From Colius striatus (lineage: Eukaryota; Chordata; Aves; Coliiformes; Coliidae), in NCBI RefSeq assembly GCF_028858725.1, contig NC_084790.1, positions 87,138,996-87,202,995 of the forward strand: DNA of 64,000 bases. The letters run 5' to 3'. The notes beneath the pieces were generated by a model, which was given only the letters and a program-made list of their open reading frames with translations, was not told the origin of the DNA and searched no databases. Of the stretch, positions 10,198-49,344 are shown one piece after another. Numbering within the stretch: the first letter of the stretch is position 1; each line of letters begins with the position of its first letter. Made by a program: the position numbers and the translations under genes.

Positions 10198-13100
10198 TTA
10201 TGGTCTTTCAAGCCTTTTAAGTCCAGCTCTTGTGTCAGTGATTAAGTTTATGAGAGTCATAGGTAATGCTGTCTCCACTACAGAACCTGGAAGCATTCCT
10301 CCTAGTTCTGGCTGAATAAACACAACTAGTTTGGAATGCTGCGGATTCCTGTGAGGAAAGGAGCAAAACCCTTCAGTTAGTCTTTCAGAGCCTGTTACTC
10401 CCTCTATGAAACTTGCTTAAAGGTGTACACATGTTTACAATGTATATGCTGTCTCTGCTGAAATCACTGGTGTGGAGAAGTGGAGAATATATGTATGAAG
10501 TTTCAGTTGTTTCAGAAGACAGCCTGAGTCACAGAACTGTTCTGCACAAAACCATTCCAGGCTTCCCCAGAATAAAACTCAAATGTTTTTGGAGAGGAGA
10601 GGAGAGGAGAGGAGAGGAGAGGAGAGGAGAGGAGAGGAGAGGAGAGGAGAGGAGAGGAGAGGAGAGGAGAGGAGAGGAGAGGAGAGGAGAGGAGAGGAGA
10701 GGAGAGGAGAGGAGAGGAGAGGAGAGGAGAGGAGAGGAGAGGAGAGGAGAGGAGAGGAGAGGAGAGGAATAACCAAAGATGCCAATGTGATGGGACTTTA
10801 ACTACTTACTCAGGTAAAGGTGAACACACATATCCGCAGGGATTGTTGTACCCTCGGACACAAGAGGGAGTCGGAGGGCAGCTGGAGCAGTCCACGCTGA
10901 CAGCTGTAAGTCACCACACACAAGAAGCAAAGTCACATTAATCATGCTCATCATAATCACAGAATCTGGGAAGGGACCTGGAAAGCTCATCCAGTGCAAC
11001 CCCCTGCCAGAGCAGCACCACCTAGAGCAGGGCACACAGGGACTCATCCAGCTGGGGTTGAATGTCTCCAGAGAAGGAGCCTCCACAGCCCATCTGGGCA
11101 GCCCCTGCCAGTGCTCCCTCACCTCAACAGGGAACTAATTCTTCATTGTGTTGCTTTGGAACGTCTTCTGTTCCAGCTTGTCCCCGTTGCCCCTTGTCCT
11201 GTCATTGGCCATCACTGAGAACAACCTGGCTCCAGCCTCCTCACACCCACCCTTTACCCACCCTCAGTCTCCTCCAAGCTGCAGAGCCCCAGCTCCCTCA
11301 GCCTTTCATCACAAGGGAGATGCTCCACTCCATCACCTTCGTGGCCCTGCACTGAACTCTCTCCAGCAGCTCCCTGTCCTTCTGCAACTGAGGGGCCCAG
11401 AACTGGGCACAACATTCCAGATGTGGTTTCATGAGGGCAGAGAAGACAGAGAAGAGAACCTCTGCACCTACTACCCACAGCCCTTCTGGTACACCCCAGG
11501 ATGCCATTGCCCTTCTTGCCCATGAGGGCACGTTGCTGGCTCATGCTCATCCTGCTGCCCACCAGCACCCCCAGGTCCCTTTCCCCTATGCTATTGTCTA
11601 AGTTAGTCATACAACTTCACAATACCCTCTAGAAAAATACTCTAACTGCTGCAGGAGCACACCAGATCTCGCAATACGGTTGCTAATGCGTTCAGCAATT
11701 CCATTCTGTACACAAAACACCCACAGGACATGAAATATTTGTGCAAGTAATTAAAAGGTAAAGACTTGCATACCCCAAGGTATTATCCTTGAGAGGTTAC
11801 TGCGCATACCTAAGTGCTGAGGTGCAGCTTAGTGCTGGACAAAGAAGTGAGTTTTTCAGCAGATGTCATTAATTAGTAAACACAGTCGCAGAGGAAAGGA
11901 GGAAACCGCTGCACACATGCACAGCAGTGGTTAGGAGGAGTTATTTGATTCAGTCCACTGTCACTTCTGCACAGTGAAGTGTAAGAACGTGGCTTGGAAA
12001 TCACCAAGAGGTCAATAAAGCTCCAAGATGAAAAATGATGGTTTTCTGCCACATGCCAAGACCCACAGATCAGAAAGAGTCAAGGGCAGAAATGAAGCAG
12101 CAGTGAGGTATTTTCCTGGTAGATCATAGGGTTGTAATATTAATCTCTTTATATTTCTGTGTAAGATTATAGAGCCAAACTCAAAGAGAATCCAATGAGG
12201 TAAGTCAGGAGCTGGCTCTGAGAACATTGGGCAAGCAGCACCTGGTCAGGAAGCCATGGAGGTACAGAGAAGTCATTAAATAAACAATTTCCATACTGAA
12301 ATAATAAATTCTAGCTTTCTCACAGGACTACTCCTTTACTGTTTTCAATTTTTTCCAAGAGAGGCATAATAGGACAATAAACAAAGAAAACAGCATTCTC
12401 TTTGGAGACAAAATTCAACTGTTTCTGTATTAAACAAGCCACTTTTTGGAGGGAAATAAACAGGAGGGGACTGTTAACGTCAGTAAGGGCACAGGCTGAG
12501 CAAGGTACATGGTCTACATGGTCACCTTGGGATTTCCAGAAAGCAAGACAAAACATAAGAACATGCAGGAGTTACATCAACTTACAGTTAGTGGTAAGGA
12601 CATCACCAGGGTATGGCCTAACATGCAGCAGGTCAACAAAATCTCTCGATGAGATCAGTCCCATACCATAGCTGTGTGTTACACTGTGGTATATACCAGT
12701 GTCCTACAAAGTAAGTAAAGGTGCATTTTTTATTAGTGTGGAAGCAGCTGAGTTTTACTGAATTGGCAAAGCAGCATTACATGTTGGATATTAGGTACGT
12801 GGCACAGAAATGGATCCCTGTTTGTTAGTCTAAGGCAACAGTGCTCATAACCTAATTAGTGCTGAACACAAGAGCCAGGAGAGGGATCTTCCAGCAATAC
12901 AGGGCAGGGATTCACTGCCAGCCTTTGAGGACATGAAGCAGGAGTGCAGTTTCTGTCTGGAAAAAATGTGCACGTTTAGTATCCATGTCTGATGGAGCCA
13001 GAAAGCCTACTTGCTCTAAGACACGTGCTAGACTGCACATTGTGTTCTAGGACAACCATCTACAATTTGTTCAAGTGCATCAGTTCCAAGAAAAGCAAAG

Positions 13101-16100
13101 TGGTTGGATGCACTACTACCTCATAACATCTGACCAGTTCTAAAGCAGAAGAAAGTAAGAGAGGTTCAGGAGGGTTTACTTTTTTCCATGTTTAAGGAAT
13201 ACTTTGACATATTTCAGTCATTCAAACACATGTAGTATATCCTGAGACACCTCTCCATCACACACAGGGCCATTCCTGCCAAGTGGTTAGATCAAAGCCA
13301 GCTAACACAGAACTGATATTCCTCATGGAAACTCTGAGTTACGGGTTTCCAGAGCTCTTGGGAAAAAGCCCCAGGCAAGTGGAATCACAGCAGTGGTGCA
13401 GCATCAACTCAGCCTCTGTGTTGCCTTTAACTTGGGTGATTTTCCAAACTTGTGTGGCCTATGATGATGCAGAGGGGAGCTTCCCCTGCAATTCACTGTC
13501 ATTCGGTATCACTCTGTTCTTGATGGTAACTTCTGTTCTTTTCCATGGACTTAATTCTTGGCATGCTAGAGGATTTTTATCATAGAATCATAGAATGGTA
13601 GAGATTGGAAGGGACCTTTAGAGATCATCCAGTCCAACCCCTCTGCAGAAGCAGGTTCACCTAGATCAGGTCACATTGGAATGTGTCCAGGTAGGTCTTG
13701 AAGACCACCAAGGAAGGAGCCTCCACAACCCCTCTGGGCAGCCTGGGCCAAGGCTTCCTAACTGAAACACTTACGTTTGTTTAAGTGAAACTTTTTGTGT
13801 TCCAGCTTCACCCCATCACCCCTTGTCCTGTTGCTAGCTACTGTAGAAAAAATGGATGTCCCAACCTCCTGACACCCATCATTTAGATATTTGTAAATGT
13901 TAATGAGGTTCCCCCTGAGTCTCCCCTTTTCTAGACTGAACAGCCCTAGGTCCCGCAGCCTTTCCTCACAAGGAAGATGCTCCAGTGCCCTGAGCATCTT
14001 GCTGGCCCTGCACTGGCCTCTCTGCAGCAGTTCCCTGTCCCTCTGCAGCTGGGGAGCCCACAACTGGACACAGGACTCCAGATGAGGCCTCATCAGAGTA
14101 GAGCAGAGGGCGAGCAGAACCTCCCTGGCCCTGCTGCCCACACTCTGCTTAATGCATCCTAATAAATCTCTTAATAAATACTTAAATTAACCCTGCTTTT
14201 AAAATTAAAACACCCTAAGGGGTAGAACACATTTCATATTCATTTCACATTGCTGCAGGTTTAGAAATTTTCATTGGCCCTGAATGGATCTCGCATTGAG
14301 ACCTTTCTTTGTCCAAGTATAGGTCTTTTTAGTCACTATGATTCATGCAGAAAGAGTTAAAATCTTTGCATTGAATTACAGCATTACCTGGTCGATCCTT
14401 TCTAACAGCCTGTACGACTGTAACGCCTTGTCCCACTTGCTTCGGTACTCAGGAAGATACATAAAAGGAATAATTTTACTAGGAACTTCCTTAATTATCC
14501 CTTCTCCACGGTATCTAGATGGTGTGACAAACAGATATTGAATTCATGGTTATCAACTGGAAAAAGAAGTTACACAGTGGTAAGCGCCCAGCAGTTGGGG
14601 ATGCCAGGCTGTAACGAGGTAAAGTACACACACTGGATTGCATTGGATGGGTTGATTGAAATCCACATAGCAATAAAATTACTCTGTGACTGATTTTTGA
14701 AACCACTACCTTCCTGACACCACACATTTTAAATTAATTATCTGTGAGCTGTTAGACAGTAACCCGTTAATTTAAACACGTGCAATTCATCTACTAAGTC
14801 GTTTTTCCTTTGCAGATACTTTCAGTCCATCTTGACACTGCAAAACCTTCTCAGTCTTTATGAACTAGCACATTCTGGCACTTCTCTAGCTTTTTGTTCA
14901 CCACCTTTTGGAGAGTTCAAGGGAAAGTCCACCAAGGGCAAAAAGAGTCCTCTCACAAGGAAACAGGAAACTCCTGCATTGCTGGGAACTGCTCCCTAAT
15001 ACAGGTCTCACACCTAGTTCTGAGAAACTGTGAATCACTACAATAAGCACTCACAGGCTGCAATTAAATGCAAAGGTGAAGGATGCTGCGGAAGGACAGG
15101 TGAGCTGGACACGCTTGCAAACAAAGAAATGTGAAATCAGACTTACAGACCACGGTGATGCAGGAGTGTAAGTCAGAAAGAGCAAAGGTAGCCAAGTTCA
15201 AACACAAGAGGCCCTGTAAAATCACCTTGCACGAGTTCTCAGGGTTTCTGAAGCGTGGGTGTGTGACTGCTCTAGAAACTTGCTTCTCTGCTAACTACAG
15301 CAGTGAGGGAAAACATTTGAATACTTACTCCAAACCAGCAAGTGTAAGCTGTGGCAGGACTAGTTACAACCAGCACACTGATATTTGGATACACCCTTTG
15401 TTTCCATAACTCCTGTGATCTAATGTTTATCAACCTATCAGCTCTCACCTGCATCCTCTCCTAAACTGTGGTGCTACTCAGGGGGACTTCTCCTAGGCAA
15501 GGCTTCTGAAAGACCCAGCTGCTAGAATAAACAAAAGAGCAACACTGGTGAAAAATCTGAGTTTCCAGTTTTTACGGTGGGTTATTGGGAACTGCACTGG
15601 AAGAAGGGTGAAACAAGCCTAGTAAAGACAGCTCAGATCACCCCCCACCTAGCCTCACTGTATTTGACAAACTGAAACACATACTTCATTGTCTTTCTTG
15701 ATCTTAGATGATACAATTCCAAGCAAAATCCTCTTCAGCCTTGAACAATCACGTTAACGCTACCCTGAACCCTGCTGAAAATACTTCACCTGAGTGATGC
15801 AAGAAGGATCCTGAAAGCCTTTCACAACCAGATCCCAAACTGATTTCTTTTTGCAAGTAAAGCAAACTGTTAACATTCCTGACAACTAAAAAAGAAACTG
15901 GCATTTGTGATACTTGGTGAATAAACATTCAATGCCAAACCGAAAATGGGAACAGCTACACTTTTGGCTCCTAGGAACAGCTAGTATTCCTTCACAAAAG
16001 ACATGCTAGGGACCAATACTGTTTGTTCATGTGACAAAGATCTGTACAAAAATAAACAAAGGGCAGAATCTGCCTCCCTGTACCAAATGGCAGGAAACGG

Positions 16101-17827
16101 GGCGATGTGTTTACTTTGCAGATTGTAACTGCAAAGGACTTGCCACATACAGATCTGAGCACAACCAGAAATGGCTTTGTGCCTGGTTCAGACTGCAGCA
16201 TGTCTTTTTTCTTCCACAAAAACAAGTCAGGCACACTCTTATGAATTCTAAGCAACCAGGCTCTCACTCCCTCACATCCATCTGTATTGAGAAGGCTCTG
16301 GGGAAACTTTACCTAAAGGGGCCGACAAGAAAGCCAGACAGGGACTTTTTACAAGGCCCTGTAGCAAAACTGAGGGAGGGAAGATTTAGGTCAGCTATTA
16401 GGAAGCAGCTCTTTACTGTGAGGGTGGTAAGGCACTGCCACAGGTTGCTCAGAGACGCTGTGGGGGCTTGAAGCAACCTGGAAGGTGTCTCTGCCCATGG
16501 CAAGGGGGTTGGAACCAAATGAGCTTTTAAGTTCCCTCCCAACCCAAATCTGTCTACAGTTCTACTCTAGGAAACAAGACCTAAAATACACCAATAATGC
16601 CACACACAAAGTATGCAAATTCTTATGAAGATAACAGTACTTTTAACATATTACAATGAAATAATACACTATATTCCATTAGAATACTGTAATTGTTCTG
16701 TAAAACTAGTGATAAAGCGTTGCCTTCTATAACTAATACCTTCTGTGCTCAAGCCTTCAGAAATAACTAGCAAACCAAGCAAGACTTTTGAATCTAGAAC
16801 ACCACTAATCACAGACATCATATTTAGAACAAAAAAAAAGTCAGGTGCAAATTTCCTCCACTGCCTGTCTGTCCAGATCGACATTTAATACAATTTAATA
16901 CTCTTTAGGTGTTAAAAGAGAGAAGTGAAGGACAAGTGTCCTCCTCTGCTTCTGCATTCTTCAGTGGGAATTTTCTCTTCCTTTTCCCTGATTTCATGAG
17001 TTGAATCACCTTGGTAAACAATCACCTGAGTGCTACAGCCACCATAAGCAAGAAGCGTGATTGCAGAGCCAGGAGAGGGATGAGGAAGAAAGTAACAGCC
17101 AACTCTAGCAGTGACAGTAGGCTCTGAGAACAGCTTAATCTGCCTCTTCTAACTCCACCCTTCTGGGTCATCCACCTGCTTAACACTAGCACAGAATTCA
17201 TCACTCAAGAGAAGGAAGGACAGAGGGATTTGTTCCAGACGTTACATGACCTTCTTATTCTCACTCCAGCTAATTAACTTTCAGGTGACAGAAAGAACAA
17301 GGTGCAAAGATCAGATGAAGTAGAGCAAGTGCATTAAGCACGTCTGCATCTGTGAACTATCAGTTTCACAAGCATGAAGGGGTTAAAAGCGAAGCCCAGC
17401 TGGCAAGATACAATGGCTTAAATGCAGTACTTCCCCACAAAGAGCCACTGACTTCAAGCCAAAACTGTGCCTTCCTACCTACTTATTCCACATCAGTAAG
17501 CATGACATAGTCTTTAATTTTCACAGTACATTTTAAGCTTAAACTTAAACCCAAACTTCAGTTTTCACTGGTTGGGAAATCCCTTTCTCCTACTCCAGAC
17601 CTACTGCTGACCCAGTGTAACCACAGTGCAAACCCTTCTCTGCATCTAGCAAAGTGAAGCTCAACAGTCTTCACTCAGGGCAGAATGTGGTGAACTTTTC
17701 CATGTCAATCTTGGGTGTCAAAGCTCAGAAAAACGCATTGTTACTGTGACAACGGCAAACAAAATGTAAATACTTACAGGTTTCCTGGGTAGTCTTTTGA
17801 AGGCTTTGAAGAAACTGTAACATTTTT
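10198..17827 (-). CDS. STARD6: StAR-related lipid transfer protein 6 (START domain)
   Basis: Small START-domain protein of the STARD4/5/6 group; these are soluble carriers of sterols or related lipids, and mammalian STARD6 is mainly a germ-cell protein. Minus-strand coding exons in transcription order: 17778-17827, 14388-14514, 12586-12703, 10810-10903 and 10198-10348 (stop at 10198). Phases join exactly and give 179 residues. Conserved landmarks in order: [16 protein letters not shown], then [14 protein letters not shown], then KWDKALQSY, then [14 protein letters not shown], then [14 protein letters not shown], then the C-terminal helix [15 protein letters not shown]. The protein ends at LERP, about ten residues shorter than human. 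The first coding exon upstream of 17827 is uncertain (see 18668-18796). STARD4 or STARD5 is excluded mainly by position between POLI and C18orf54. Confidence 0.9.
10591..10769. repeat. Uninterrupted GGAGA pentanucleotide array
   Basis: About 36 perfect copies of GGAGA with no visible interruption; one strand is pure purine. It lies in the 461-base STARD6 intron between exons ending at 10810 and starting at 10348. On the STARD6 transcript it reads (UCUCC)n, a long pyrimidine tract ahead of the last acceptor. Open reading frames through it are artefacts of the repeat. Confidence 0.98.
10952..11612 (-). mobile_element. CR1 LINE 3' fragment
   Basis: Different subfamily from the 2251 copy (CCCCTGCCAGAGCAGCACCA). 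It lies in a STARD6 intron, same orientation as the gene. Confidence 0.9.
13581..14165 (-). mobile_element. CR1 LINE 3' fragment
   Basis: Begins CATAGAATCATAGAATGG; in the STARD6 intron between exons 14388 and 12703, in gene orientation. Confidence 0.92.
16288..16565 (+). mobile_element. Older CR1 fragment
   Basis: Contains GAGAAGGCTCTGGGGAAACT and a diverged 3' end with GGTTGCTCAGAGACGCTGTG, typical of an old CR1 subfamily. Confidence 0.7.
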
Positions 17828-18667
17828 CTCAGAAACAGAGAAAAACAAAAAAGAAAACAACTTAGCAGTTGATAAAAGAGCTGCCGGGTCATTTTTCAAG
17901 GAAAACAGTTTTAAGTGCTTTTTGCAACAAACTGTATTTAATTAAAACAACTTCAGAAACAGTATCAACTAATATTTTCTTACTGAAACTTTTATCACCC
18001 TCCATCCTGACGTATCTTGACTGTATGACAAAATCTTTTCTGACACTTCATCTGCAATTTTCTTATAGTCCATTTATCTATAAAGATTTAAAAACAATGT
18101 GTTGGTACATGATAAAAGCACTCCTTAAGAGGGAAAAAAAACATGTCATTCCTGCTTTGTTTCCACAGGTTTCACCATTCATTAACTGAGTGTTCCTATC
18201 AAATCAACTTTTTGTTCATTATATCCCACTTCAGAAAGAGATAAGCAATAAACAAAACTCTGTGACCAACTTCCAGTCTGGGCTAGGGAGAAGTAGCCAC
18301 TGGTGTGGACCTTGAGAATGAATTACAGCATCCAGCAAGACACATTGTCCACTCCACACTAAAGCCATCATTACTCCACAGTAAAACTTCCCCTGCTCAC
18401 ACAGTTTATCGTCTGAAATCGTGCCTCTGCCAAGATTTGCTGAGGTCATTAGACCAGCAGGAGGCTGACAAAGTTAAAACACAAGAGGCTCAAACAATCA
18501 AAGAGGTTTTTCTTCAGCCAGTACTTTATGAGGTGTCATTGTGGAAACTCTTTGGCAGGTGAGAGACCAGCACCGAGGCTACAGAAACACTGTCACCAAG
18601 ACATCCTTCACCCAGCCCAACCCTGCCCTCCCTAACGTGGCATTTCTGCTGTGCTGGAGCTCCTTAC

Positions 18668-22189: not shown

Positions 22190-22210
22190 ATGGATTTAAA
22201 AGATGTGTGA
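22190..22210 (+). promoter_or_regulatory. Six-codon upstream ORF overlapping the C18orf54 start
   Basis: The exon begins exactly with ATG (22190-22192) after the acceptor ccatttag. This frame reads six codons and stops at TGA 22208-22210. The main ATG is 22203-22205, inside the uORF in another frame, so ribosomes using the first ATG terminate just past the true start. Confidence 0.7.
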
Positions 22211-25200
22211 AGATTCTAACAGCATGGCAAGCTCACTAGAGGAAAGCAGTACTTGCTCTCCCGATTCAACGGTATCTTCCCTTTTATCAAGCATTGACAG
22301 CAATAATCCATGCTCAAATAGCTTGATTCAGTACAAGGACAAGCTTTACAGCTCTGCATCTGAGGCATTGGAGGCTTATATTGAAGATTTTGATTTAAGC
22401 CTCACATCTTCAGAAATAAGCACTGGAAAAATCTGCATTTATCAAAGCACTCCCAAAAAAGTAAAGATTTCAAAGCACCATGCCAAAGACAGCCAGGGTA
22501 TGTGAACCTAAATATGCTCTTTAATAAGTTTTTAGTGTTTGCTGTTCTTGTTTTGTTTTCATTGCCAATGGTATTGCAACTCTTTGTCTCATACTAGGTG
22601 TGTTTTGGTGAAGGTGTATTCCCCTGCACAACTGCTTGCAAGTCTTTAGGGTATAGTAAACAGTGCTTGGTCATGGCTAGCAAGGTTTGTCATTCTCTAT
22701 AATGCTTTTTCACAAGTGCTCAGCAGGTTGGTAAGAATTTGTGACCATGCTTATAGATGCAATAATAAATTCCAGAGTATGGAATTAAAATGGTATTTTT
22801 TGTATGTGAATGTCTGCTGCAGCAGTGTAAATCTTTGCTTAAACATGAGTCTGGAAAGAAGAAATCTCAGTTTCCAGAGTAACTTACATCAGAACCTAAT
22901 TAATTGAAGGAGTTGCCTTAAAACATTGCTTTTTCTTAGAGCAAATTTTACCTCTTATCAGTTCATAGAATCCTAGAATGATGGGGGTTGGAAGGGACCT
23001 TCAGAGATCATCCAGCCCAACCCCCTGCCAGAGCAGATTCCCCTCAAACAAAGGGCACAGGAACATGTCCAGGTGTGTTTGGAAACCTCCAAGGAAGGAG
23101 CCTCCACACTCTCCCTGGGCAGCCTGGGCCAGGGGTCCCTCACCTCACCTCACACTGAAACAGTTTGTCCTTATATTTCAATGGAACTGTTTGTGTTCCA
23201 GCATCTTTCCATCATCCCTTGTCCTGTCACTGGATACAACAGAAGAAAGTGCTGCCCCAACCTCCTGACACCCACCATTTAGATATTTGTCAATATTCAT
23301 GAGATCCCAAACAGGTTTTTATTTGATTTTTTTAAATGATTTTTAATCAATATTAATTGATATTTTATTTTAATTGAGCTTTATGGAATATACTTTGGAA
23401 GCTGAAACCTAACCCAGCTGGGTAATGTGTGTGGGTTTGAATTGGCTGTTGTAATTATTAGCTGTCTTGACAAAATAAATGCTAAATTGATTACATGAGA
23501 AGATAAAGAGTAGGCTTTTGGGGTAGATCTAGAGTAAATAACTGTGCTTGAGCTAATTTGTCTTGCAAATGCTTTGCCTGTTACATCTGAAATCACAGAG
23601 TCCTAAGTACAGGAGAACTTAAGACCCAAAAAAGGATGCTGGTCTGTGTTACATGGACAGTTATGGCAGCACATTCTATTATCCAGGGCTTTTGGGTTTC
23701 TTTTCACTGTATCCTATAACCTTCCTTCACACTTTTCCCTTTTTTCTCTTAGTTGTTTCGTAGCTGTGTTTTAGCTTTTTGTTTGTGTTTTTCTAACAGA
23801 AAGCACCTTCTATTTAAGCTTATTTCCTAAACAAAATAAGCATTCTGTTTACCATTAAAAATGAGAAGCTGTTCTATGGAAGATGTCACCTCCTCACATT
23901 CCACTCTGAAATCTCTGATCTTTGCAGAACTCTCATCTCCTTTCACAAGCTGTCTAGTCTGCATGTGTGTTTTCTGTGTTGCAGTAGCCTGTACTGTACA
24001 GATTTCACTTTAGTTAAGTAAAAAGGATTTCATACTGTAATTCTTCCCTGAAAATCTGTTGGGTCAAGTTTATCCAGCATGTAACTTTCTGTAGAATCCC
24101 AAAATCGTTCTGTAGGCCCATTACCTTACTCCTTGCTTTGCAAGCTCTTGCTTTTAGCTTGTTTTTTTCCTTTTTCTCTAGCAATTGTGTTCAGTTTCAG
24201 TCCATGGAAAATCATGCCCAACATTACTGTGATGAGGAAATGGTGTTACTCAGACTGGAGTAGTAAGGATGTATCTGCAAAATATACAGTTCTGAAGGTG
24301 AAACTAAAAATGTGTCATAGGATCTTGGTGTCTTGTTTCTCCTAAGTAAAAAACCAAAGAAAATACCAAAGCTACTGATGTTCTATGCTACAAATGGAAA
24401 GATAACTTTTGACTGGTAAGGTTTCTTTCAAGCTTCTGATGAGAAACAGAACCACTCCTGCAAGAGCTGTGATTCAGGATCCTCTGTTTTAAGAATATAT
24501 TTCAGCTTTAAAATATTACATCACGTTAGATCTTACAAATGTATCCTCTTGGTATGCTTGAGGTTTAGCAATTTATGTGAAATATCTTTGTTTTTCAGCC
24601 TTGGATGGCTTTAATCAGCACATAGGACTGGGTTCTCTTGCTTCACCCTCGCAAAGACAGAGTGATTGTGACCTAGATTCAATTAGCCTTGCAACAGATG
24701 ATCTGTTAGCATTTCCAGCAGATGGGTCACTGCCTTTTCTCCAGTGTAGCCCTTTCAAATCAAAGCATCAAAGTAGTGAGTGGAACAGACAGTCACTGAA
24801 AACATCTCTCCACCCTTGCCAAGACTCATCACTCAATACCAAAAGCAGTTTCTGTCTCCAGGAGAACAGCAAACCTGTTGCTCACCAGAAGCCACACAAA
24901 GACTTCAGCAGAAAGAAATGCAGTGTGTATACACCTGTTAGGCACGATTCTGCATCCTCTAAAGGAAGTTCAAGAGCTTTGTCTTTTGAAGGGATCTCTA
25001 ATGCTTATTCTGCTAAGAATTATTCACGATGTCTCTCCAGTCACAAGCCTGACTTCAGTGTGTCAGGGATAAGTATTATCCCCAACTTTCACTACCCAGT
25101 CTGGTTTAAGAGTGATCACCTTTCTTCTGATTCAACTAGAGAAACCGATGGCCCAAGTTTTCATACAGAAGCTACAGCTTCCTCTTCACAAGCTTTTGAG

Positions 25201-28200
25201 ACTCAGGGACAAAGACACGACGTAGACAAAGACAATTCTGAGTTTAATGAACACAATGCCCATCTGGATGCTAGAGGTGATAACAAAGTAGAAGAAAGTT
25301 GCAACTATGACAGTCCAGGTTCACACTTCCAACCTGACAACTGGTTTTCAAGCCACGCCAAAAAGCCACTCAGAGGTAACTGTGTTTCATGTAATTTTTT
25401 TAAACTTTGAGAATAGCTACAAGGACATGTACGTTGTGTTTTAAAACCAACACTCTCTGGCCGCAGTGGTCTGTCTGCACTGTACAGATTTAGTCACATC
25501 CACCTTCAACAAATTACTCAAAACACTTACTAGTAGCTGTCAAACGGCTTTAATACTCAAAGTTTTTACATATAAACCAATACTTAAGCACTCTTTGTAC
25601 CCCAAAGGCTATTTGTTGCAGGGGCTTACTTAGTCCCTTACCCCGAGGTAATGACAGTGTAACCTTGGGAGAGATTCCTAAGCCTAGTGTAAATAAACCT
25701 GACAAATTGCCTGATAAATTGTATTTCTCACCAGTCTTTTTTTGTTACTTTACATAGTCAGCAGGAGATACTTGTAACCCATATATTTAGGATATCTGCT
25801 GCCTTCAGTTTATGTGAAGACTTTCTTTGGGAATCTGTCATGTAGCTGCCCTTCATCACTCATCAGAAGCAAGGAGGTCCTCAGGTGGTGAAGCACCATC
25901 TTTATATGATGAAATATCACCAAGATGCCCTTTGATATGAGAGATTAGCATTTCAAAGTGTTAATTACTTTCACTGCTAAGTTACTCCTTTAAGGAGAAA
26001 TATTCTTTATGAAAAGCGTAAACATTGATCTCTCCTTTTTCCCAAGAGGTGATCTATATAAACTAAATTAAAATGTGGTTTATCTTGTGTATTCAAAGTA
26101 AGAAAATGCAAGTACCTTTATAACACATATTCATGAAGAACTTTAAATGCAAGCTGGGTGTTAAAAACATACATGAGGATGTGTCTGTCACTTCTTTGTG
26201 CTTGGCTCAACCTATTTTTGTACGTGAGTCTGGTAGGTTGGCTGAATGTGTGATTGAATGTGCAAACATACACATCTATGTTTGCCTGATTTCTCTCCCA
26301 GGTGCCTGTAAAAGCAGCTATTAGAACAACCTGTACAAGATAATAATGAAATTAACCTCAGAACTTACATTATTAATAAGTAGTACTTAACGTATTGTGA
26401 GTTAATTACATTTTCTACAGCATGAAAGCCAGAGTAAAATCATTAAGTAACCTTGAATGCTGCACATGGTACTTGTTTTACATAAGCTAGGAAAAGAAAC
26501 GCTTGACTATTTAAATTACTCTCCTGGCCAGAATCTTGCAGACACCATTTGTTACTGATGATTTACATGCAATGATAACATACAAATATAACCAAAGGAG
26601 CTGTGTTGGGACTATACTGTCTGTAGAATATCTCCAGTGTTAATTTGTCTGCAGTAAATTTTCTCTTGAGTATTACATAAAATTCAAAGCAGTGTAGAAA
26701 TAATGACCTTGGAAAGAGTTGGACACACTGTGTCCTTGGTTTTTGTCAGAAGAGCAGCTTGAGCTACTTACCTTGAAAGATGCCAGAGGTCTGCAGAGTT
26801 CAAATGAAGGTCTGTTGAATAATGTGGAAAATGATGTCAGCCCTTCTACAACTGATATACTAGGAGCAGAAAGATCGTGGGAAAATGTTCCAGTTGCTTG
26901 GTAAGTGAACGTGTATCTTACACTAGCTTGTTCATGTAAAGGTGTGATGTATTTAATTGCTTTTGTATGTGAATGATAAGTAACAGTGATGTGGCGTGTA
27001 CATAAAGAAAGGATTTAGTATTAGATTTCAGCCTGACCTCAGTGCTTCCATCCTGTGCAATGGAACAGGTCATCGTGAGCACTGTTGAGGCACATACAGG
27101 ACAACCAAGGATTCAACCCCCTGCACCAGGACAGGCTGGGAGTCGAACTGCTGAAGAGCAGCTCTGCAGAGAGAGACCTGGCAGTGCTGATTGATAGTAA
27201 GCTAAATATGAGCCAGCAATGTGCTCTCGTGGCCAAGAAGCCAATGGCAACCTGGGATGCATCAAGAAGAGTGTGGGCAGCAGGTCAAGGGAGGTTCTTC
27301 TCCCCTTTTACTCTGCCCTGGTGAGGCCTCATCTGGAGACCTGTGCCCAGTTGTGGGCTCCTCAGCTCCAGAGGGACAGGGAACTGCTGGAGAGAGTCCA
27401 GCACCGGGCCAGCAAGATGATCAGGGCACTGGAGCTTCTTTCATAAGAGGAATGGCTGCGGGACCTGGGGATGTTTAGTCTGGAGAAGAGGAGACTGAGG
27501 GGGGAATCTCATTAACAGTTACAAATATCTAAAGGATGGGTGTCAGGAGGTTGGGACATCCCCTTTTTCTATAGTAGATAGTATCAGGACAAGGGGTGAT
27601 GGGATGAAGCTGGAACACAAATAGTTCCATTGAAACATAAGGACAAGCTGTTTCAGTGTTTCAATGAGGGAGCCCTGGCCCAGGCTGCCCAGGGAGGGTG
27701 TGGAGGCTCCTTCCTTGGAGGGCTTCAAGACCCACCTGGACACGTTCCTGTGTGACCTGATCTAGGTGGGAGCTGCTTCTGCAGGAGGGTTGGACTGGAT
27801 GATTTCTAAAGGTCCCTTCCAACCCCTACCATTCTATGATTCAGGCCCAGCCAGAGTGGCTTTATGAAGGGCAGGTCCTGTTTGATCAAGCTTATCTCCT
27901 TCTATGACAAGGTGACCCACTTAGTGGATGAGGGAAAGGCTGTCGATGTGGTCTTCCTGGACTTCAGTAAAGCCTTTGACACAGTCTCCCACAGCATCCT
28001 CCTGGAGAAGGGTCCTGTAACCCCTAATAGTGTTCTGTTTTGTGCTCCTGTTGTGAGACAGGTTAATAATCTGACCTTCTGCTAGCCACCAAAACACCCA
28101 AATAAGAGAACATCACTGGAACTGTGTCCTAAACTATAGCTAAGAAATCCTTACCTTGCCTTTTTTATTTACTGGCAAAAGTACATACATCAAGGTGCTG

Positions 28201-39780: not shown

Positions 39781-39792
39781 CAGCTGTAACAA

Positions 39793-39870
39793 ATGGACAA
39801 CCAGGCGTTTGAAATGCACGGAGAGAACATACGAAGCCCTTCAAAAGGCAAAGAGTGGCCACAGAGAGAG
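39793..39870 (+). CDS. Bicupin exon 1: cytoplasmic tail
   Basis: The acceptor-like tttcag ends at 39783, implying an upstream 5' UTR exon. The ATG is nine bases into the exon and opens MDNQAFEMHGENIRSPSKGK, then EWPQRE to the donor at 39871. The tail is hydrophilic and carries no signal peptide, in keeping with a type II membrane protein. Confidence 0.75.
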
Positions 39871-42800
39871 GTACTAGCCATTTTCTTTTACAGTGCTATC
39901 AAAACATTATTAAGAGAGCCAGTCTGAATATTAAACCCTTCTTTTGTAATATGACCTAATCCTGTGTCGTTGAGATGGTCCTGAAGAAAATAAAAGCTGA
40001 AGAGGGCTTCAAGGTCCTAAAATGCATAGCTCTGTGTGCAAGATCTGAACTGTGAGACATAGCTCCCTGGCCCCACTCAAGTTAATAGCTAAATTCTTTA
40101 TCCCCTAACTACTGGACAAAGTAATTATCTTTGGAGGATTGCCCATTGATTTTAACAGAAAGAGCTACTTAAAAGCTCATTTTGTGGTAATGTTGAGCAT
40201 CTCCACAGAGTCACACACTGGAACAGTTTCATCTCTCTCTCTCTCTCTTTTTTTCCCCCCTGGAGAAAAGTAATTCTGTAATTCTCTGTAATTTTCCCAT
40301 TAAAGTTTTTGCTCCTTGAGATTTGAACTAACTCCACGCAACAAGAGTTGGTGCATTGCTCGTAACCCATTACTTTGCAGCCTGCACAGTGCTGCTTCTC
40401 AGCTATAAACGTACCAATTTGTTGTGACCTTCTCCCAACCTCGCTCATTCATTCCACACAGCTGTGCTGAGGGTGAATGTCCTGTGTTAGTTATCCTTAC
40501 TTAATGTGTACATCGCTCCTTCAGCATCAATTTCAACTTATTGAAGCAGTGCCACTGCTGTAAATTAAAGGCCCTCCAGAACTGGGGTTTCAGATGCATT
40601 TAACTATAAAGCCTCGTTCTCTGATGAGAGTCTGTGGTCTGAGCACTGCTGTTGGGATGTTTAATTGAACATGGGCTTGAGAAAGGGAGTCGTTTAAACT
40701 TCTGTGCTGAGGAATGTACTTGTGAAACGCTTCTGTCAAGTAGATTCATTAAAAAGGTCGTTTTGTTAAAATGTCAAAGTGTTTCTTTTGGTTCTGATTG
40801 TCCACCTTAAGAAATCAACATCCACACCTCATTTTCAGGCACTCACTGCCTGAAAGTCAGACTTGTAAAGGTGGATCAAGCTATGCACCCAAAATCAATC
40901 GAGTTCTAGCATTTGGGCCAGAGTATGCAGTCTCTATTCATCTGAAGCTGCAACTTCAGCAGTAGATCAGGTCAAGGGAGAGGAAACACTGAACATTTTC
41001 ACCAAGGTGATGCCTCATGGTGCCAGAAGTGCCATGGCTCCTTCTGTGAAGAACGTGTGCTTCTGCTTCCTCCCTACACCCTCCTCCACACACCTGAGTG
41101 TCCAAAAAGGACATATCAGTAAAGAACTAATGCCTAGAGCAGTTAGTACAGATGAAACATCCCCATTCTGGCCTCTCCTCTCCACTGCCAGGGAGCTGGG
41201 CCACATGAGATGTGACACAAAGCAAAGGCAGTGTTTCTGCCCCAGAGATGAAGGTTTGCCCTGAGCTGATGCTGCAGGTCTTCAGCATTTGCGACATTGA
41301 TTAGAAACTCAGACCTCAGGATGAGGACAACGTGATTTTACTTGATAAAGGGCAGCAACAATCTGATAACATCCTCCATAAGGTTTTGCTGGACTGGCCC
41401 AGTAATTTAGCTATACCTGTGTTTCTGAAAGACACACTGCTGTGACAGGAAAAGAACTGTCACGAACTTTCTCCTGTGTGTTAGATCTAATTCCTTTTTA
41501 TCGGTTTCAGGAAAGAAAGGCCAGCTGGTCCCTAATGAAAGTCTTTCTAGTTTGCCTGTTGGCCTGTGTAATCACCACTGCAGTAGGAGTGCTGGTGCTG
41601 TCCTTGGTCTATGTGAAGAACCCTGCCTATATAAAACAGACTGATGCCAAAGACAACGGTGCACCTTCCCCACAACCAGAAGAAAAAAGTGTGGATAACA
41701 AGTTCCAGTTCCTGTATCATCTGGGGAAATCAAAGGTAAATTGCTCCTCTTGTGCAATGACATTCTGGTGTCATATAAGGAAATGTAATGAATTAGTTTC
41801 ATTTAACTATTTAAATGCTAGGTGATCAGGCAAAACTTGTTACCCTGGGCTTCTGATGTAATCCATGGGGAGGTACACAAACTTCCTGACAGCTTTTCTC
41901 TCCATGAGAGATGTTGGAAGTGGCATGGATCACCTCTCAGAAAGCTAAATAATGGCTCTAACAAATTAGGCTTGCAAGGCAAGGCAACCATTTCATTCTG
42001 AAATTGCAGAGCATGGAATCTTGAGAAACAAACCCGGAAAGATCAGATTTTAAAGGAAGCTGAGCAGCACACAAACTTTTTCTTTCTTAGGGCTGGATTC
42101 AAACAACTTGGTATGTCACAGTAAAAACGAGCCCTGTGGTCTTGTTTCAGTGAGCTCAAGTGAATTCATGGACAATGTAACAAAGCCCTAGGGATTATGT
42201 AGGTTTTGTTTAGGTGTTTTTTGATACTTACAGAAATGTAAGACACACCCCATCTTCTAAACATACCTTTGAGTAAAACCCAACTCCTGACTCACTTTTG
42301 CTTTTCAACACAAGAGGGAAAAAGCTACATTAGATGATAAGGCACTTTCAACTGAAAACAGCCATTCTGATACCTTTTCATCTTAGAAATCATAGTTTTC
42401 ATCTTTTCATCATAGTTAAAAACTATGTAATGCATTTAAACCAAAACAGTGTTCAGGAAAGCAGACAAAAGTGTTTAACAGGAGGGCAACACATCTAATT
42501 TGCCCTTCCTCAGTGCAAGGTGACTCTTTCAAGCACAAAGCATGTCCTAGAGGTAGTAGACATATTGGCAAAGGCATGGTTTCAGGTGCAAGTAGTTTGC
42601 AACTGTAGAAATTCAAGAAAGTGTCTTAAGAATGTCCTGAGTGTTTTGGGTCTGAGTGAGCATAGAATCATAGAATCATAGAATAGAATGGTAGGGGTTG
42701 AAAGGGACCTTTAGAGCTCATCCAGTCCAACCCCCTGCAGAAGCAGCTCCCACCTAGATCAGGTCACACAGGAACGTGTCCAGGTGGTTCTTGAAGCCCT

Positions 42801-45800
42801 CCAAGGAAGGAGCCTCCACAACCCCTCTGGGCAGCCTGTGCCAGGGCTCCCCTACTGAAACACTGAAATAGTGTTTTCTTATGTTTCAATGGAACTGTTT
42901 GTGTTCCAGCTTCATCCCATCACCCCTTGTCCTGTTGCTAGATACTATAGAAAAAAGAGATGTCCTTTTTTGAGCATATGTAGCTCATTTCCCAAATTAG
43001 AGCATGTGAGCAATATGTAACTGATTTCCCAAATTAGAAATCCAGAGTCACATAAAAAGAGGAGGAACAGGTAAGATTTTTTTTAATCCATCATTCCTTA
43101 TCTCTCAATTGTTGAAAGAACACAATGGAGAAAGAATTTGAAGGCATATAAATGGTTGTGAAAAGGGACTGAAATACATACAGAGAGAATCCTCACTGAG
43201 AACACCAAGAACTTCCTGAAATACTTCCTGTCTGATCAACACCATCCACAATTAACACAGTGCCCCTCTGCCATGGACTTCACAGGTATACAGCTACCCA
43301 GGCGGGGAGATTCAGTGGGCAAGATTCAGGAAGGACGCAAATGAATATGAAAGCGACGAAGAAATGGAGTTTGGGCAAAGTATCAATAACCATCGCTCCC
43401 AAATGACTTTTGGGACCTTACGGATCAAAAGCAAAGGGCTTCGGGCTCCCCACTGGCATTTTAATGCCAATGAGCACGGCTACCTGCTGCAGGTATGACT
43501 TGTTTCATTTGGTTTTGCTCTGTAAAGCACGATGTATGTATAGGAGCACATATGTGAAAATGAATTGCAGCTGCATGACCTACAAATGGTAACAGGTAAC
43601 AAGCAGAATTGCCATTGATTGATGCATGACATTAGTTTTCTTGTTTGAAGTAATGGTTTCAAACGGAAATGCTTGAAATGGGCTGTTTAACGTTGTCACT
43701 TGTGAGAGGACCAGGCACCTGCAGCTTACAAGGAAGCAGCAGAGACTCAGGATACCTGAAAGTTAACAGGATTTTGTGTGCTTATCCAAGTGCTTACAAT
43801 GGTTAAAGTAATTGTGTTCCTGTGCAACCTGGTCTAGGTGGACCTGCTTCTGCAGAGGGGTTGGACCAGGTGCCTCCCATACTTCACCACACAAACCATT
43901 AGACAGTTTGTGCTGGTAAACAAGCCACATTTTTGTTCATTGAAACAAAAAACCCTAAAAGTCCTAATTTCTCCTTGTTCATCTCCATTGACTGTGGAGA
44001 TTCTCATATCATCTTTGTTTCTCAAAGCATTTTAGATGTGGAAGACTGTTTTGTTGCCATACAGCCTTCTCTTTCCTAGACTAACTACCCCTCCCTTTCC
44101 CCTTCAGTAAATCCTCTTTGAAAAGATTTGCCCCATCTCACTTGAGATTCACAAATCCCAAGTCTTCAAAAATCAAGGAAATGAAAGAGAGAATAAATAT
44201 AAGCTCCCCATGAGGAATTCAAGACAGCATGTTAGTTTGAAAACAAGCTGGTCTTTCTTTGGGAGCATAGGTGCCTAGATATATCTCAACTATTCATTTA
44301 TTCCTATGAATAGTTATACTTACTTTGATAACATGACCAAACAGCTGTTTCTCTCTCCAGCAGTTCTGGCCCAAAGCTGTTCACAGCCTCTTTAATAAGA
44401 AATGGTCTTGAGTATGAGTAGTGTGACTTTGTCATGTGTTCCTTAACCTTCCTAAAACTCACTTAAAATGCTGTTCTGGGTTTAAGTTTAAAAAGTCATC
44501 AGGATCTGGGGTTTTTTTTTCTCCTTCAGGCCATTTGAATTATTGATTTGTCCCATATGGGTTAAATGAGAAGACTTCCATGTGGACTGTAAGGCTCTGC
44601 TTTTGTTACAGGGTTCTGCCTGGATTGGAGTAATAGGGGCAGATAATGGCATGGTTACCACCTACAACGTCACAGCTGGCCAAGTCATCTTCTTCCCTAG
44701 AAACACTGTGCATTGGATAAAGAATGTAGGGTCAGAAGATTGTTTGTTCTTGCTGTTTTTCACAACACACGAAGAACTTCAGACCTTGGATGTAGATGAT
44801 GCCTTCTTCTCTACCCCAGAGGATATAGCAGCTAGAGCATTACAGGTCTGTACAACAGGCTAGCCAGCCTCTCTCTGCTCTTCCACACATTAACATGGCA
44901 GCCCAGGCTTTCTGGATATATCTTTTGGAGAGGATCCTCCTTACCTCAACTGTTCCCTGTAGTGCCATCAGTGTGGAAGGGAGTACACATGTCCTTTGTG
45001 TAACACTGTGTCCATTTATACACGAGGAGAAATAAATGATGATGCTCTCTCCAAGAAACCTTTTCTCCTCCACCCTCCACTCTCCACTTTCATGTCCAGT
45101 TCATGGAGGATCCTCCACACTCCCCAAGTTGGAAGGGAAAATAAGACAGTGAGAAGCTCAGCAGCTTGCTGACTCTGTCATCTCAATGTGCATTGTGTGT
45201 CCTGCAGCCACCAGGTGGAGTTAACTTCATCAGAACCTTCAAGAAACAAGTGGAAGATCAAGCAGTCAACCTCCCACCCAACCTGGATGAGCTCGTCCAA
45301 AGCGCCAACTATGTGCAGTCTCCAGACAACCTGGTGTGGCAGTACTTCTACAACCTCAAAGGTACACACACAGGGACTTTGTGTGTAAGGTCTCTGTGTT
45401 TCTAGCAGAGGAGAGGAAGGGATCTGTAATGGATTCACTGAAACAAGAGTTTAAAAGTATACAGGGAATTTAAGGAGATGAAATAAAGAACTCTCTTGAT
45501 TTTACTGTTTTTATCTGCAACAGTAGATACAAGAGCAGAGTGACAGTATGTAGCACAGAGTAATAGCTCCCATGTCCAGGTTCTCTACTGATGTTTGTGA
45601 CCAGGATTGGTCTGTTCCCTGCTATAGTTAAGCAATAACCTTAATCTAAACTTCTCATTCATTAAAATCTCACAGGCTTGGAAGCTCTGCAGCAGTTTGA
45701 CTGGAGAGTCACTGATGCTGAGCTTCTTAGAACATCTTCCATTTGCATATCAAACAATAATGAATAAACACCTTAACATATAGCTAATTACATCTTCCCT

Positions 45801-48800
45801 TTCTTTTACAAATACAACTTCATAAACAATGTTGAACCATATTCACTGTTTGGTGTGTCAACAACTGTATCAATTGACCCTCTGTACAGCCTGGATCTAG
45901 TGATTGTCAGTGAGCACCTAATAAACATAGCTGGCAAATCTTACTTCTAAGGTGTATAGTCTATCAAAAAAACCCCATAAAAAGCAAATACAGGTCCAGA
46001 TAGCCGATGAAGGTCATGAGAAATAGATGTGTGACAAAATGTTTTGCCCTCAGGCTAAAACATTCCTCTGTGTTGGCAGCACTTCGCAACGTGACTTGTG
46101 GTCAGTGCCATAAACACAAAGGGGTACGATGAAAGGTGGCTTGTTCCTTAAGTGTATAGCTAACAATAGCGATTTGGGATGGAAAAACCAATCTAGTCAG
46201 AGCTGTTCAGTACAGTTATCTGTCTACAGATAGTTAAGCTAAGTTGGGCGTTCTTGGTTCCAGGGGCTGGTAAGATGCGAGGCCTTTAGCAATGACTTGA
46301 AGTTATCTGATAAAGAGAGTTGTGGTAACCAAACCCTGTGGGAAATGCTCATTCCTTGTCTTTGCTTTAGGGTCAACAGAGTATCCTTTCCCAGGAGGAG
46401 CCTTCCAGTGGGCCCGCTACCGCAGGAACGCCACTGGGCTGAATGACACGGAAAAGATCTTCAGTGAGTCCCTCAACAAGGTTGGTGCCTTCAGTTGGGT
46501 GCTGCAGCTAATGGAACCCCAGGCACAGAGTTCCCATGGGATGGGCACTGCTTTGTCTTGTATAACAGGGATATAACCAACCTGGATGGTTTTCTGACCA
46601 TCTTTGTTCTGCTTTCCAGCACGAGAATACCCTCACCTTAGCAACTCTCAGGATATCCAGCAACGGCCTGGGGCAGCCTCATTTCCACTTCAATGCTAAT
46701 GAGATGGGTTATGTCATCAGCGGCTGTGGACAGGTAATGTGAGGGATATGTCAGTGGAGCTTTGGCTGTAAGGCAGTTACAGACCCAATAACTGGTTTGC
46801 AGCCCTACAATTAGCAATCCTACAATTAGCAGTTTTACAAAGCTTGCAGCATCCACGTTTTCCTTCTCCACACCACGATTTGATCTCAAGTGCATTTGTG
46901 GAAATATGTCTGGTCACAGTGGAGTTACACACAGAGCAGAATTTGCCCATCTTGTTAACTTGTTCACACACTCGTGGCAGGAAACACCACGCTCCTGACT
47001 GCTGCCAGTACAAAACAAAAAAGGCCAATACTTTTGATTTAGCACCTCAGAGGAAAAGACAAATAGAAGCAAATTCAGTGAGTATTAAGATTTAAGAGTG
47101 CAGGATTTCACTATTTGTTTTTCACAAGATGTAAGTTTGAAGTGCAGGGACAATTGTGATGGAGTTATTAGAACTGGCATTGGAATGAGAATTAGAGTTG
47201 GAATCAGTGAGGTTGGAAAAGCCCTTTAAGCTCCTGGAGTCCAACAGTTCCCCCAGCACTGTCACAGCCATCACTAACCCGTGTCCCTCAGCTACACAGC
47301 TTTGGGATTCCTCCAGGGATGGGGACTCCACCACTGTCCTGGACAGCCTGTGCCAGGGTTTGACAGCCCCTTGGGGAAGAAGCTCTTGCTCACCTACAAT
47401 CTAAACCTCTGCTCCTGGTGCAACCTGAGGCTGTTTCCTCTTGCCCTGCTGCTCGTTACTTGGGAGCAGAGGCTGATCAGCCCCAGTTTCACAGCCTCCT
47501 GTGAGGGAGGTTCAGAGAGTGCTCATGTCTCTCCTCAGCCTCCTCTTCTCCAGGCTGAACACCTCCATTCCCTCAGCTGCTCCCCATCAGACTTGGGCTC
47601 TAACATTCTAATGAGACTCCATAACGTAAGGACTTACTGTGTTCTTTCTCAAGAGCCAGCCTAAGACCCCTCTGCCTTGCTGGAGCCTCAGTGAACATGC
47701 TGGTGCTGCAGCAGCTGATCTCAGAGCAGAGCTGGGACCATCTTTGTGCATTTATGCAGTAACAGCACACTGGAAATTGTTGTTGAGTATCGCTGCTTTA
47801 CTTGCAATAGGTTGGAGTTATTCTCTCTGGAGCCACTGCCAGCTTCAACATTGGCATTGGAGACGTCATATTTTTCCCTGTTGGAACCCAGCATTACATC
47901 AAGAGTGTATGTGATGAAGACTTGCTTTTGATTCTGGCCTACAGTACAGGAAACCAGGTGAGAGCTCAGATGGGCAAGGGAAGTAACAAAATGTTCAGCG
48001 TTATGCCTTGGGACACACCTTCCAAGAGAAACGCTAAGAGCGTGTCGAGTTCAGTGCCAGTGCAAATTTTCTTCTGGTGTGGCTGTTTGGCATATAACAC
48101 CTATCAAATCTCTACACACAGAAATGGGAGGGGAGATGGGGAAACAGAGGTCTGTGGAAAGATGTGACAAAGCTCATATGTCTTGTCCTAACTCCTTTGG
48201 CCTCATCTGGAGTCCTGTGTCCAGTTGTGGGCTCCCCAGCTGCAGAGGAACAGGGAAGTGCTGCAGAGAGGCCAGTGCAGGGCCAGCAAGATGCTCAGGG
48301 CACTGGAGCATCTTCCTTGTGAGGAAAGGCTGCGGGACCTGGGGCTGTTCAGTCTGGAGGAGACTGAGGAGGGAGCTCATTAATATTGACAAATATCTCT
48401 CTGGTGGGTGTCAGGAGGTTGGGGCAGCACTTTTTTCTATAGTAGTCAGCAACAGGACAAGGGGTGATGGGATGAAGCTGGAACACAAACAGTTCCATTG
48501 AAACATCAGGACAAACTGTGTCAATGTTTGAGTGAGGGAGCCCTGGCCCAGGCTGCCCAGGGAGGGTGTGGAGGCTCCTTCCTTGGAGGGCTTCGAGACC
48601 CACCTGGACACGTTCCTGTGTGACCTGATCTAGGTGGGAGCTGCTTCTGCAGGGGGTTGGACTGGATGAGCTCTAAAAGTCCCTTCCAACCCCACCATTC
48701 TGTGAGTCTATGATGTGTGTGAGTAAGAGAGATGGACTTCAGATGTGTTTGTGCATGAGGTCCTGCTGGTGTTCAAGGCACTGCTGGTGTTCACAAGGTG

Positions 48801-49142
48801 CTCAGGCCGAGCACCCACCAAAGGGCAGCATCTTTGTCAACCCAGGAGCCAGAGCAAGGCTGTTTTATCTAGAATGACACATCTCCAGTGGCCTTGGTAG
48901 CCCAGTGTGAGACTCCTCATTGGTTATCTACTTGTGCACTGTAACACTCCATATTGTTATTACTGGATTAAATGGATGTCACAGCTGTGATGATTGTTTT
49001 TAACCCACCATCTCTTTCTCCACAGCTGGAAACCCTCCGCATGAACGAATACTTTCGGGGCACAGCAGATCACATCCTGGCTCAGCTTTTCCTGAAGGAA
49101 CAGGCTGAGTTCCAGAATTTCCCAACAGCTGCCAGAAATTAG
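39793..49142 (+). CDS. Membrane-anchored bicupin protein at the DYNAP locus
   Basis: Nine coding exons: 39793-39870, 41511-41735, 43286-43492, 44612-44845, 45208-45361, 46371-46480, 46620-46733, 47811-47957 and 49026-49142. They join in phase to 461 residues. Residues 1-36 are a basic cytoplasmic tail, about 37-61 a transmembrane helix, and 62-100 a Pro/Glu-rich stalk. Two cupin domains follow. Cupin 1 has HWHFNANEHGYLLQG (His157, His159, Glu164) and His204. Cupin 2 has HFHFNANEMGYVISG (His357, His359, Glu364) and His402. All eight metal ligands are present. Sequons at Asn189, Asn319 and Asn324 fit an extracellular ectodomain. The family resembles germins, spherulins and bacterial oxalate decarboxylases, but the reaction, if any, is unknown. 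By position this is the DYNAP locus. It may be annotated elsewhere as spherulin-like; I cannot check. Confidence 0.92.
41511..41735 (+). CDS. Bicupin exon 2: transmembrane helix and stalk
   Basis: Encodes ERKASWSLMK, then a hydrophobic run from KVFLVCLLACVITT through GVLVLSLVY, then a hydrophilic stalk with SPQPEEKSVDNK. It ends FQFLYHLGKSK. That last piece matches WQYFYNLKGS before the second cupin, so the duplicated unit begins in this exon. Positive charges before the helix favour an outside C-terminus. Both junctions are phase 0. Confidence 0.9.
42661..42968 (-). mobile_element. CR1 LINE 3' fragment
   Basis: Starts with three CATAGAAT-type tail units; in the bicupin intron before the exon at 43286, antisense to the gene. 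Confidence 0.92.
43286..44845 (+). CDS. Bicupin cupin domain 1 (two exons)
   Basis: Exons 43286-43492 and 44612-44845. Motif 1 is H-x-H-x4-E-x6-G exactly as in germins. Motif 2 reads GQVIFFPRNTVHWIKN, where Asn replaces the usual Gly after the Pro but the His ligand is kept. Beyond the barrel comes TTHEELQTLDVDDAFF and a helix. The Ser-Glu-Asn-Ser lid loop of oxalate decarboxylase is absent. Confidence 0.93.
43815..43885 (+). mobile_element. Short CR1 3' scrap
   Basis: About 70 bases matching CCTGGTCTAGGTGGACCTGC of the CR1 3' region, without the terminal tail units. Confidence 0.65.
46371..49142 (+). CDS. Bicupin cupin domain 2 (four exons)
   Basis: Exons 46371-46480, 46620-46733, 47811-47957 and 49026-49142. 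It starts PFPGGAFQWARYRRNATG. Motif 1 is complete and motif 2 reads GDVIFFPVGTQHYIKS, the canonical form with Pro-x-Gly and His. The terminal helix LETLRMNEYFRGTADHILAQ mirrors the end of domain 1. The stop TAG is 49140-49142. Confidence 0.93.
47190..47605 (-). mobile_element. CR1 LINE 3' fragment
   Basis: GGTTGGAAAAGCCCTTTAAG marks an older subfamily; ends about 200 bases before the bicupin exon at 47811. Confidence 0.82.
48198..48713 (+). mobile_element. CR1 LINE 3' fragment
   Basis: Ends CACCATTCTGTGAGTCTATG; in the last bicupin intron, sense to the gene. Confidence 0.92.
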
Positions 49143-49338: not shown

Positions 49339-49344
49339 ATTAAA
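49339..49344 (+). terminator. Probable bicupin-gene polyadenylation signal
   Basis: ATTAAA about 200 bases after the stop codon, followed by a GT/T-rich stretch suitable as a downstream element. Confidence 0.55.

Follow-up and report, generated by a model that had tools for sequence, protein, structure and literature searches.

What is a double-cupin protein doing on the membrane of a bird cell? Germin-type bicupins are known from plants, fungi and bacteria, and we know of no vertebrate enzyme that degrades oxalate. The question was raised by a gene at positions 39793-49142, on the + strand, of a 64,000-nucleotide stretch of the Colius striatus genome (contig NC_084790.1; C40:87138996-87202995 in our numbering), the whole of which is called the window here. 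An earlier note, made from the letters of this stretch, had described a vertebrate gene of nine in-phase exons encoding a cytoplasmic tail, one transmembrane helix and two germin/oxalate-decarboxylase-like cupin domains. We found that this observation is real, and its interpretation was supported. The gene also has an identity that the note overlooked, as it is the bird DYNAP, already named in print. What the analysis adds to that name is a double-cupin ectodomain, which human DYNAP lacks.

When the gene was rebuilt from the raw sequence, nine exons joined to 461 codons plus a stop, with 0 internal stops and eight of eight introns bounded by GT-AG. The coordinates, the 461-residue length, the canonical splice sites and the unbroken reading frame were thus all reproduced. 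The description of the exons as in-phase holds for the joined frame but not for every single exon: seven of the eight introns are in phase 0, and the one after codon 299 is in phase 1. From the intact frame, the gene looks functional. Its parts, all on the + strand, are the following:

39787..39789, +, in-frame TAA 5' of the start codon; upstream of it, a pyrimidine-rich stretch closes with an acceptor-like AG at 39783
39793..39870, +, coding exon 1: N-terminal tail, 26 codons
41511..41735, +, exon 2: remaining tail, CLLAC transmembrane helix and stalk; by its helix, the counterpart of the last human DYNAP exon
41526..41612, +, CLLAC domain/transmembrane helix, residues 32-60 (Pfam PF15675, 54.5 bits, cut-off 25)
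43286..43492, +, exon 3: first part of cupin 1, with R154, H157, H159 and E164
44612..44845, +, exon 4: second part of cupin 1, with H204 and the sequon N189
45208..45361, +, exon 5: linker joining cupin 1 to cupin 2
46371..46480, +, exon 6: start of cupin 2, with the sequons N319 and N324
46620..46733, +, exon 7: cupin 2, with H357, H359 and E364, and G354 at the position of R154 of cupin 1
47811..47957, +, exon 8: cupin 2, with H402
49026..49142, +, exon 9: C-terminus and stop
49339..49344, +, ATTAAA polyadenylation-like hexamer, about 200 bases 3' of the stop

Because the TAA and the pyrimidine-rich stretch ending in AG precede the ATG, the gene probably opens with an untranslated exon further upstream. 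Although 21.5% of the window is self-similar, 0 exon bases lie inside window-internal repeats, and this ruled out repeats as the source of the reading frame. Four CR1-like repeat blocks were observed in the introns (42667-42965, 43816-43866, 47202-47586 and 48199-48726), none of them touching an exon. A search against Rfam gave 0 matches at the gathering score. In the source genome (1.21 Gb, 191 contigs), the Cupin_1 profile had a single match at E <=0.001, within this gene (5 candidates scored), and the 461-residue query had nine matches at E <=1, which fell on the gene's own nine exons (10 candidates scored). The bird gene was therefore the only locus matched by this query, although a helix-only gene could escape the first look of such a search.

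The Pfam analysis that the earlier note had proposed placed Cupin_1, Cupin_2 and CLLAC above their cut-offs. Cupin_1 was matched in two stretches, with 121.4 bits against a cut-off of 22 and an E value of 3.1e-35 for the protein, and CLLAC was matched at residues 32-60 with an E value of 8.3e-15. Along with Cupin_2, Polysacc_synt_C also scored above its cut-off, both over the cupin region. The two germin/oxalate-decarboxylase-type cupins of the note were borne out, each with a His3Glu metal site: the motifs lie at residues 157 and 193 in cupin 1 and at 357 and 391 in cupin 2, and all four ligands are present both in the first (H157, H159, E164, H204) and in the second (H357, H359, E364, H402). 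The single transmembrane helix was likewise recovered as a single stretch of strong hydrophobicity (19-residue windows with starts from 29 to 45) that matches CLLAC, and all three N-glycosylation sequons lie C-terminal of it. The predicted domain matches are not due to chance, and with a profile above the gathering score and two motifs of three His and one Glu, the predicted protein is a member of the cupin superfamily. Its closest sequence matches in the PDB were oxalate decarboxylases OxdC (E ~1e-17), followed by SLL1358, 11S globulins and germin. With the OxdC/TIGR03404 bicupins, the closest solved structures by sequence, it shares two Cupin_1 domains with His3Glu sites; unlike them, it has a membrane anchor, a separately duplicated pair, a shorter lid and no Arg in cupin 2. 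Plant germin (oxalate oxidase, PDB 1fi2) and the 11S globulins match the bird cupin region in sequence, but germin is one cupin and the 11S globulins are storage proteins, and to our knowledge neither is membrane-anchored.

The identity of the gene came from its helix and from its place. In human DYNAP (dynactin-associated protein, C18orf26), the helix is a CLLAC domain. The human sequence used in our comparisons (210 residues) is, like the STARD6 and RAB27 queries below, a working copy and not one retrieved from a database; CLLAC was found in it at residues 108-137 with 63 bits, and the cupin profiles had no match to it at E <=1. Between the two helices, 21 of 32 residues are identical, and the alignment score was reached by none of 20,000 composition-matched shuffles, the best of which had 10 identities. 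The letters of the working human sequence agree at the middle and the end of the protein with primers printed in the passages of PMC8329785 that we used. According to the same passages, the last human exon (exon 3) comprises the helix and a Ser/Thr-rich tail (Fig. 1 legend), exons 0 and 1' together have 144 bases, and isoform b lacks exon 2 and with it 55 residues. By these numbers, human exon 3 begins at about residue 100 and in phase 0. The same phase is found at the start of bird exon 2, where a conserved Trp stands at exon residue 6 vs about residue 9 in human. The bird and human genes thus share the CLLAC helix, a single helix in the protein, the gene order and the phase-0 start of the helix exon; they differ in that human DYNAP has 210 residues, a longer N-terminal tail and, in the working sequence, no cupin match. 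Furthermore, the helix exon is terminal and carries the Ser/Thr-rich tail in human, whereas bird exon 2 splices in frame to the cupin exons. A terminal helix exon with such a tail is therefore absent from the bird gene, though this feature, known to us from human only, need not define the family.

With regard to place, the neighbours found in the window were:

1496..9046, +, POLI exons: Pfam IMS, DNA polymerase-iota thumb and UBM above cut-off
10201..18073, -, STARD6 exons: 5 segments 41-50% identical to the human STARD6 query, E <=1e-6
22200..26901, +, C18orf54/LAS2 exons: the exon at 26707-26901 matches PF15792 LAS2 with 18.2 bits, below the cut-off of 27

Pfam START hits three of the five STARD6 segments, all below cut-off, and the other two match nothing. 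C18orf54 is the weakest neighbour, as its frames at 22200 and 24562 had no significant Pfam match and were assigned by eye and position. For RAB27B, the window itself gave only three chance matches (E 0.12 to 0.43). In the source genome, the RAB27 query had 93 matches, as expected for a large family; among them, five RAB27B-like exon pieces lie in order at C40:87256651-87266708 on the + strand, some 54 kb beyond the end of the window, the first of them 96% identical, and a second set of RAB27-like pieces lies on C9. The bird order is then POLI, STARD6, C18orf54, our gene and RAB27B, the last two both on the + strand. The human order, as given in Table 2 of PMC4868023 (the part of that source used here), is MBD2, SNORA37, POLI, STARD6, C18orf54, DYNAP, RAB27B, CCDC68 and TCF4. 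The bird gene occupies the place of DYNAP in it, between C18orf54 and RAB27B and on the strand of RAB27B. Since helix family and gene order agree, the gene is almost certainly the DYNAP ortholog, as far as its sequence and position can tell.

Three further observations concern the surroundings. A 20-base minisatellite of 47 copies fills 19845-20792, between STARD6 and C18orf54, and accounts for minus-strand open frames of 538 and 402 codons across it. Within STARD6, GGAGA is repeated in a perfect array (35.6 copies) at 10591-10768. Between the last C18orf54 exon found and the bird gene, a reverse transcriptase fragment at 27840-28082 (Pfam RVT_1, 28.5 bits, just below cut-off) is probably part of a CR1 element.

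In print, DYNAP has been met in birds through work on the DCC region; passages of PMC5327424 put DCC, when present, on chromosome Z in birds, place DYNAP between STARD6 and RAB27B and report it absent from that place in Galliformes and Passeriformes. With POLI, STARD6, C18orf54 and RAB27B all found in our genome, its source is probably neither a passerine nor a typical galliform. Passages of PMC5327406, in conflict with this on whether chicken keeps the gene, report DYNAP transcripts in all Galliformes examined and its presence in the chicken assembly, and call it salvaged and fast-evolving. Fast evolution, with little but the helix shared with mammals, might explain why one paper missed chicken DYNAP. 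The passages of both papers give the gene name only, in the same interval, and their DYNAP is very probably the gene analysed here. The words cupin and oxalate did not occur in the main text of PMC5327406, and no paper linking DYNAP with cupins was found, in a search outside of which supplements and most subscription journals fell, so that this is no proof of absence; the matches to both terms together were DynaPro light-scattering instruments only. Likewise, nothing to the point was found on vertebrate bicupins or CLLAC. In the passages at hand, a cupin superfamily paper had no mention of vertebrates or animals, and a coral transcriptome paper gives 6 paralogs for a 'Cupin family protein'; animals are thus not without such genes.

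Where, then, did the cupin pair come from? The comparison set held 85 bacterial or viral-contig loci with a bicupin frame, 77 of which had two usable, non-identical halves. Cupin 1 and cupin 2 of the bird protein are 43.8% identical over 146 columns, closer than either comes to any of the 77, but a likeness unremarkable by itself, because the N and C halves within one bacterial protein average 37% (27-59%); the tree decides. In a careful tree with 27 of the 77 bicupins, hand-picked for spread, the two bird halves were sisters with support of 100/98. The N halves and the C halves of 22 bacterial proteins formed separate groups (98/98 and 90/89), and five bacterial pairs fell outside this split together with the bird pair: L004 and L075, which are from archaea, L021 and L032 from Chlamydiae, and L043 from Alicyclobacillus, whose halves are mutual sisters. 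The tree program warned that two long pairs, the bird one and L043, meet (85/62); without L043, the bird pair still received 100/98. With all 77 bicupins, FastTree paired the bird halves at 0.998. In AU tests, forcing the bird N half among the 22 N halves (p 0.0098) and the C half among the 22 C halves (p 0.031) were both rejected, with this 22-row OxdC set chosen after the tree was seen. A copy of a bacterial OxdC pair was rejected on the sister halves and these tests. Recent transfer from the sampled bacteria was also rejected as unlikely: the bird halves average 24-27% identity to the 77 bacterial bicupins, and at most 33%. As the halves are sisters rather than grouping N with N and C with C, and as the NCBIfam oxalate decarboxylase model TIGR03404 scored 139.7 bits, well below its cut-off of 254.2, we did not place the bird protein in the OxdC family. 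Its pair instead arose by a duplication separate from that of OxdC, or was homogenised. An old duplication is favoured by the introns, whose positions in one half do not match exactly those in the other.

In the bacterial material, the Phyllobacterium plasmid L002 (1183-3828) carries an OxdC-type bicupin next to a formate/nitrite transporter and an FdhF/YdeP oxidoreductase, a neighbourhood that would fit oxalate decarboxylation there. Three IMG/VR contigs (L085, L086 and L087) carry a relative of the OxdC-type bicupins, and these may belong to the flanks of a prophage instead of being virus genes. A scan of viral contigs with the single bird protein gave 4 pattern matches, none of them a relative.

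What the protein does can be proposed from these parts. Passages of PMC8329785 describe human DYNAP as a type II protein with its C-terminus outside, in the Golgi and plasma membrane, and report its co-precipitation with dynactin p150. On account of that topology, the bird cupins would face the cell exterior or the lumen of the Golgi, and all three bird sequons are indeed on that side of the helix; by analogy with the human protein, bird DYNAP would be a type II membrane protein, with its short N-terminal tail as the cytosolic end. Each cupin is predicted to bind a metal ion, probably Mn, via three His and one Glu, and a metal-binding ectodomain is likely. Cupin 1 may be where a small carboxylate, oxalate for example, is turned over, and cupin 2, with Gly in place of Arg, would be mainly structural or support oligomer formation. 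Counted back from the first metal His, the third residue (H-3) is R154 in cupin 1 and G354 in cupin 2. An Arg at this H-3 position, R92 in OxdC, was present in each half of every one of the 77 bacterial bicupins, a count biased by the patterns used to find them, which prefer an Arg ahead of the metal motif; cupin 1 has the Arg expected at H-3 of the catalytic cupin of an oxalate decarboxylase. Because it keeps R154 and has the shorter end branch in the 27-bicupin tree (0.43, against 1.0 for cupin 2), cupin 1 is favoured as the putative active site. For OxdC, passages of PMC8254039 describe one cupin as the preferred site and a C-terminal cupin without the flexible lid.

Nevertheless, the cupins might not be catalytic at all and could form a ligand-binding or structural, oligomer-forming ectodomain like that of seed-storage globulins, a reading compatible with the DYNAP identity. 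The 11S globulins among the PDB matches speak for it, as do the missing Arg of cupin 2 and an OxdC-type lid 2-3 residues shorter in the bird protein. Yet storage globulins have largely lost their metal ligands, while all eight are kept here and cupin 1 keeps its Arg. We regard a non-catalytic ectodomain as the main rival reading, somewhat short of an even chance, and consider it an even call that bird DYNAP is an enzyme; oxalate is the first candidate for its substrate, though a doubtful one.

As for the history of the two forms, the simplest picture is that the helix exon in human corresponds to bird exon 2 minus the splice that follows it. Mammalian DYNAP would be a truncated form, in which the helix exon lost that splice and came to end in a Ser/Thr-rich tail. 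Comparing the bird and human forms only, we infer that the truncation probably happened on the mammalian side. The opposite history would have a short CLLAC protein as the ancestor, to which sauropsids added a bicupin downstream by exon joining or through a transferred gene. The helix alone is common to bird and human DYNAP, no outgroup was sampled, and OxdC-like genes are common in bacteria (at least 561 confirmed of 595 candidate stretches), all of which leaves room for such a gain. However, seven exons make up the part downstream of exon 2, which in the tree stands apart from the 22 bacterial pairs of OxdC type, and the low identity to any of the 77 bacterial bicupins makes a recent transfer from these improbable. 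We consider a gain in sauropsids unlikely.

Taken whole, a long-form bird DYNAP that is a metal ectoenzyme, with the mammalian form truncated, is a fairly probable explanation. Several results weigh against it. Outside the helix, the bird and human proteins show no likeness, either in the N-terminal tail, where 340 of 500 shuffles score as high, or in the stalk, where 117 of 500 do. The N-terminal primer printed in the passages of PMC8329785 matches the working human sequence only in its first residues, and the human PCR sizes given there differ by 152 bases vs the 165 expected for a 55-residue exon, which is not fully consistent. The flank charges around the helix (+3/+1 in bird, -1/-1 in human) say little about topology, and to the low TIGR03404 score is added that the lid glutamate of OxdC, E162, aligns with E225 in one alignment and not in another.

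Since only about 32 residues are shared, the likeness of the helices could be thought convergent and the gene unrelated to DYNAP, merely lying in the same interval. This is very improbable: the identities are about twice those of the best shuffle, Pfam recognises the domain above its cut-off, the place and strand relative to RAB27B are the same, and the genome query matched the bird gene alone, within the limit already given for helix-only genes. A decayed or unexpressed gene, for which one could cite the want of transcript evidence from the source species, is scarcely credible against 461 intact codons, eight GT-AG introns, a full set of metal ligands and, in passages of PMC5327406, DYNAP in the transcript data of all Galliformes examined.

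When overexpressed, mammalian DYNAP transforms mouse cells. The human protein has been studied for its oncogenic properties, and its physiological function is, in passages of PMC8329785, still open. Should bird DYNAP prove to be a bicupin of the cell surface, ordinary biochemistry could test what the gene originally did. One proposal, to which we give nearly even credence, is that mammalian DYNAP is the remnant of an ancient, membrane-tethered vertebrate bicupin, probably a metalloenzyme, whose cupins came from a duplication of their own and of which birds kept the whole. If true, human DYNAP could be read as a tail and an anchor that outlived their ectodomain, and vertebrates would have a germin-type bicupin on the cell surface, possibly one that handles oxalate.

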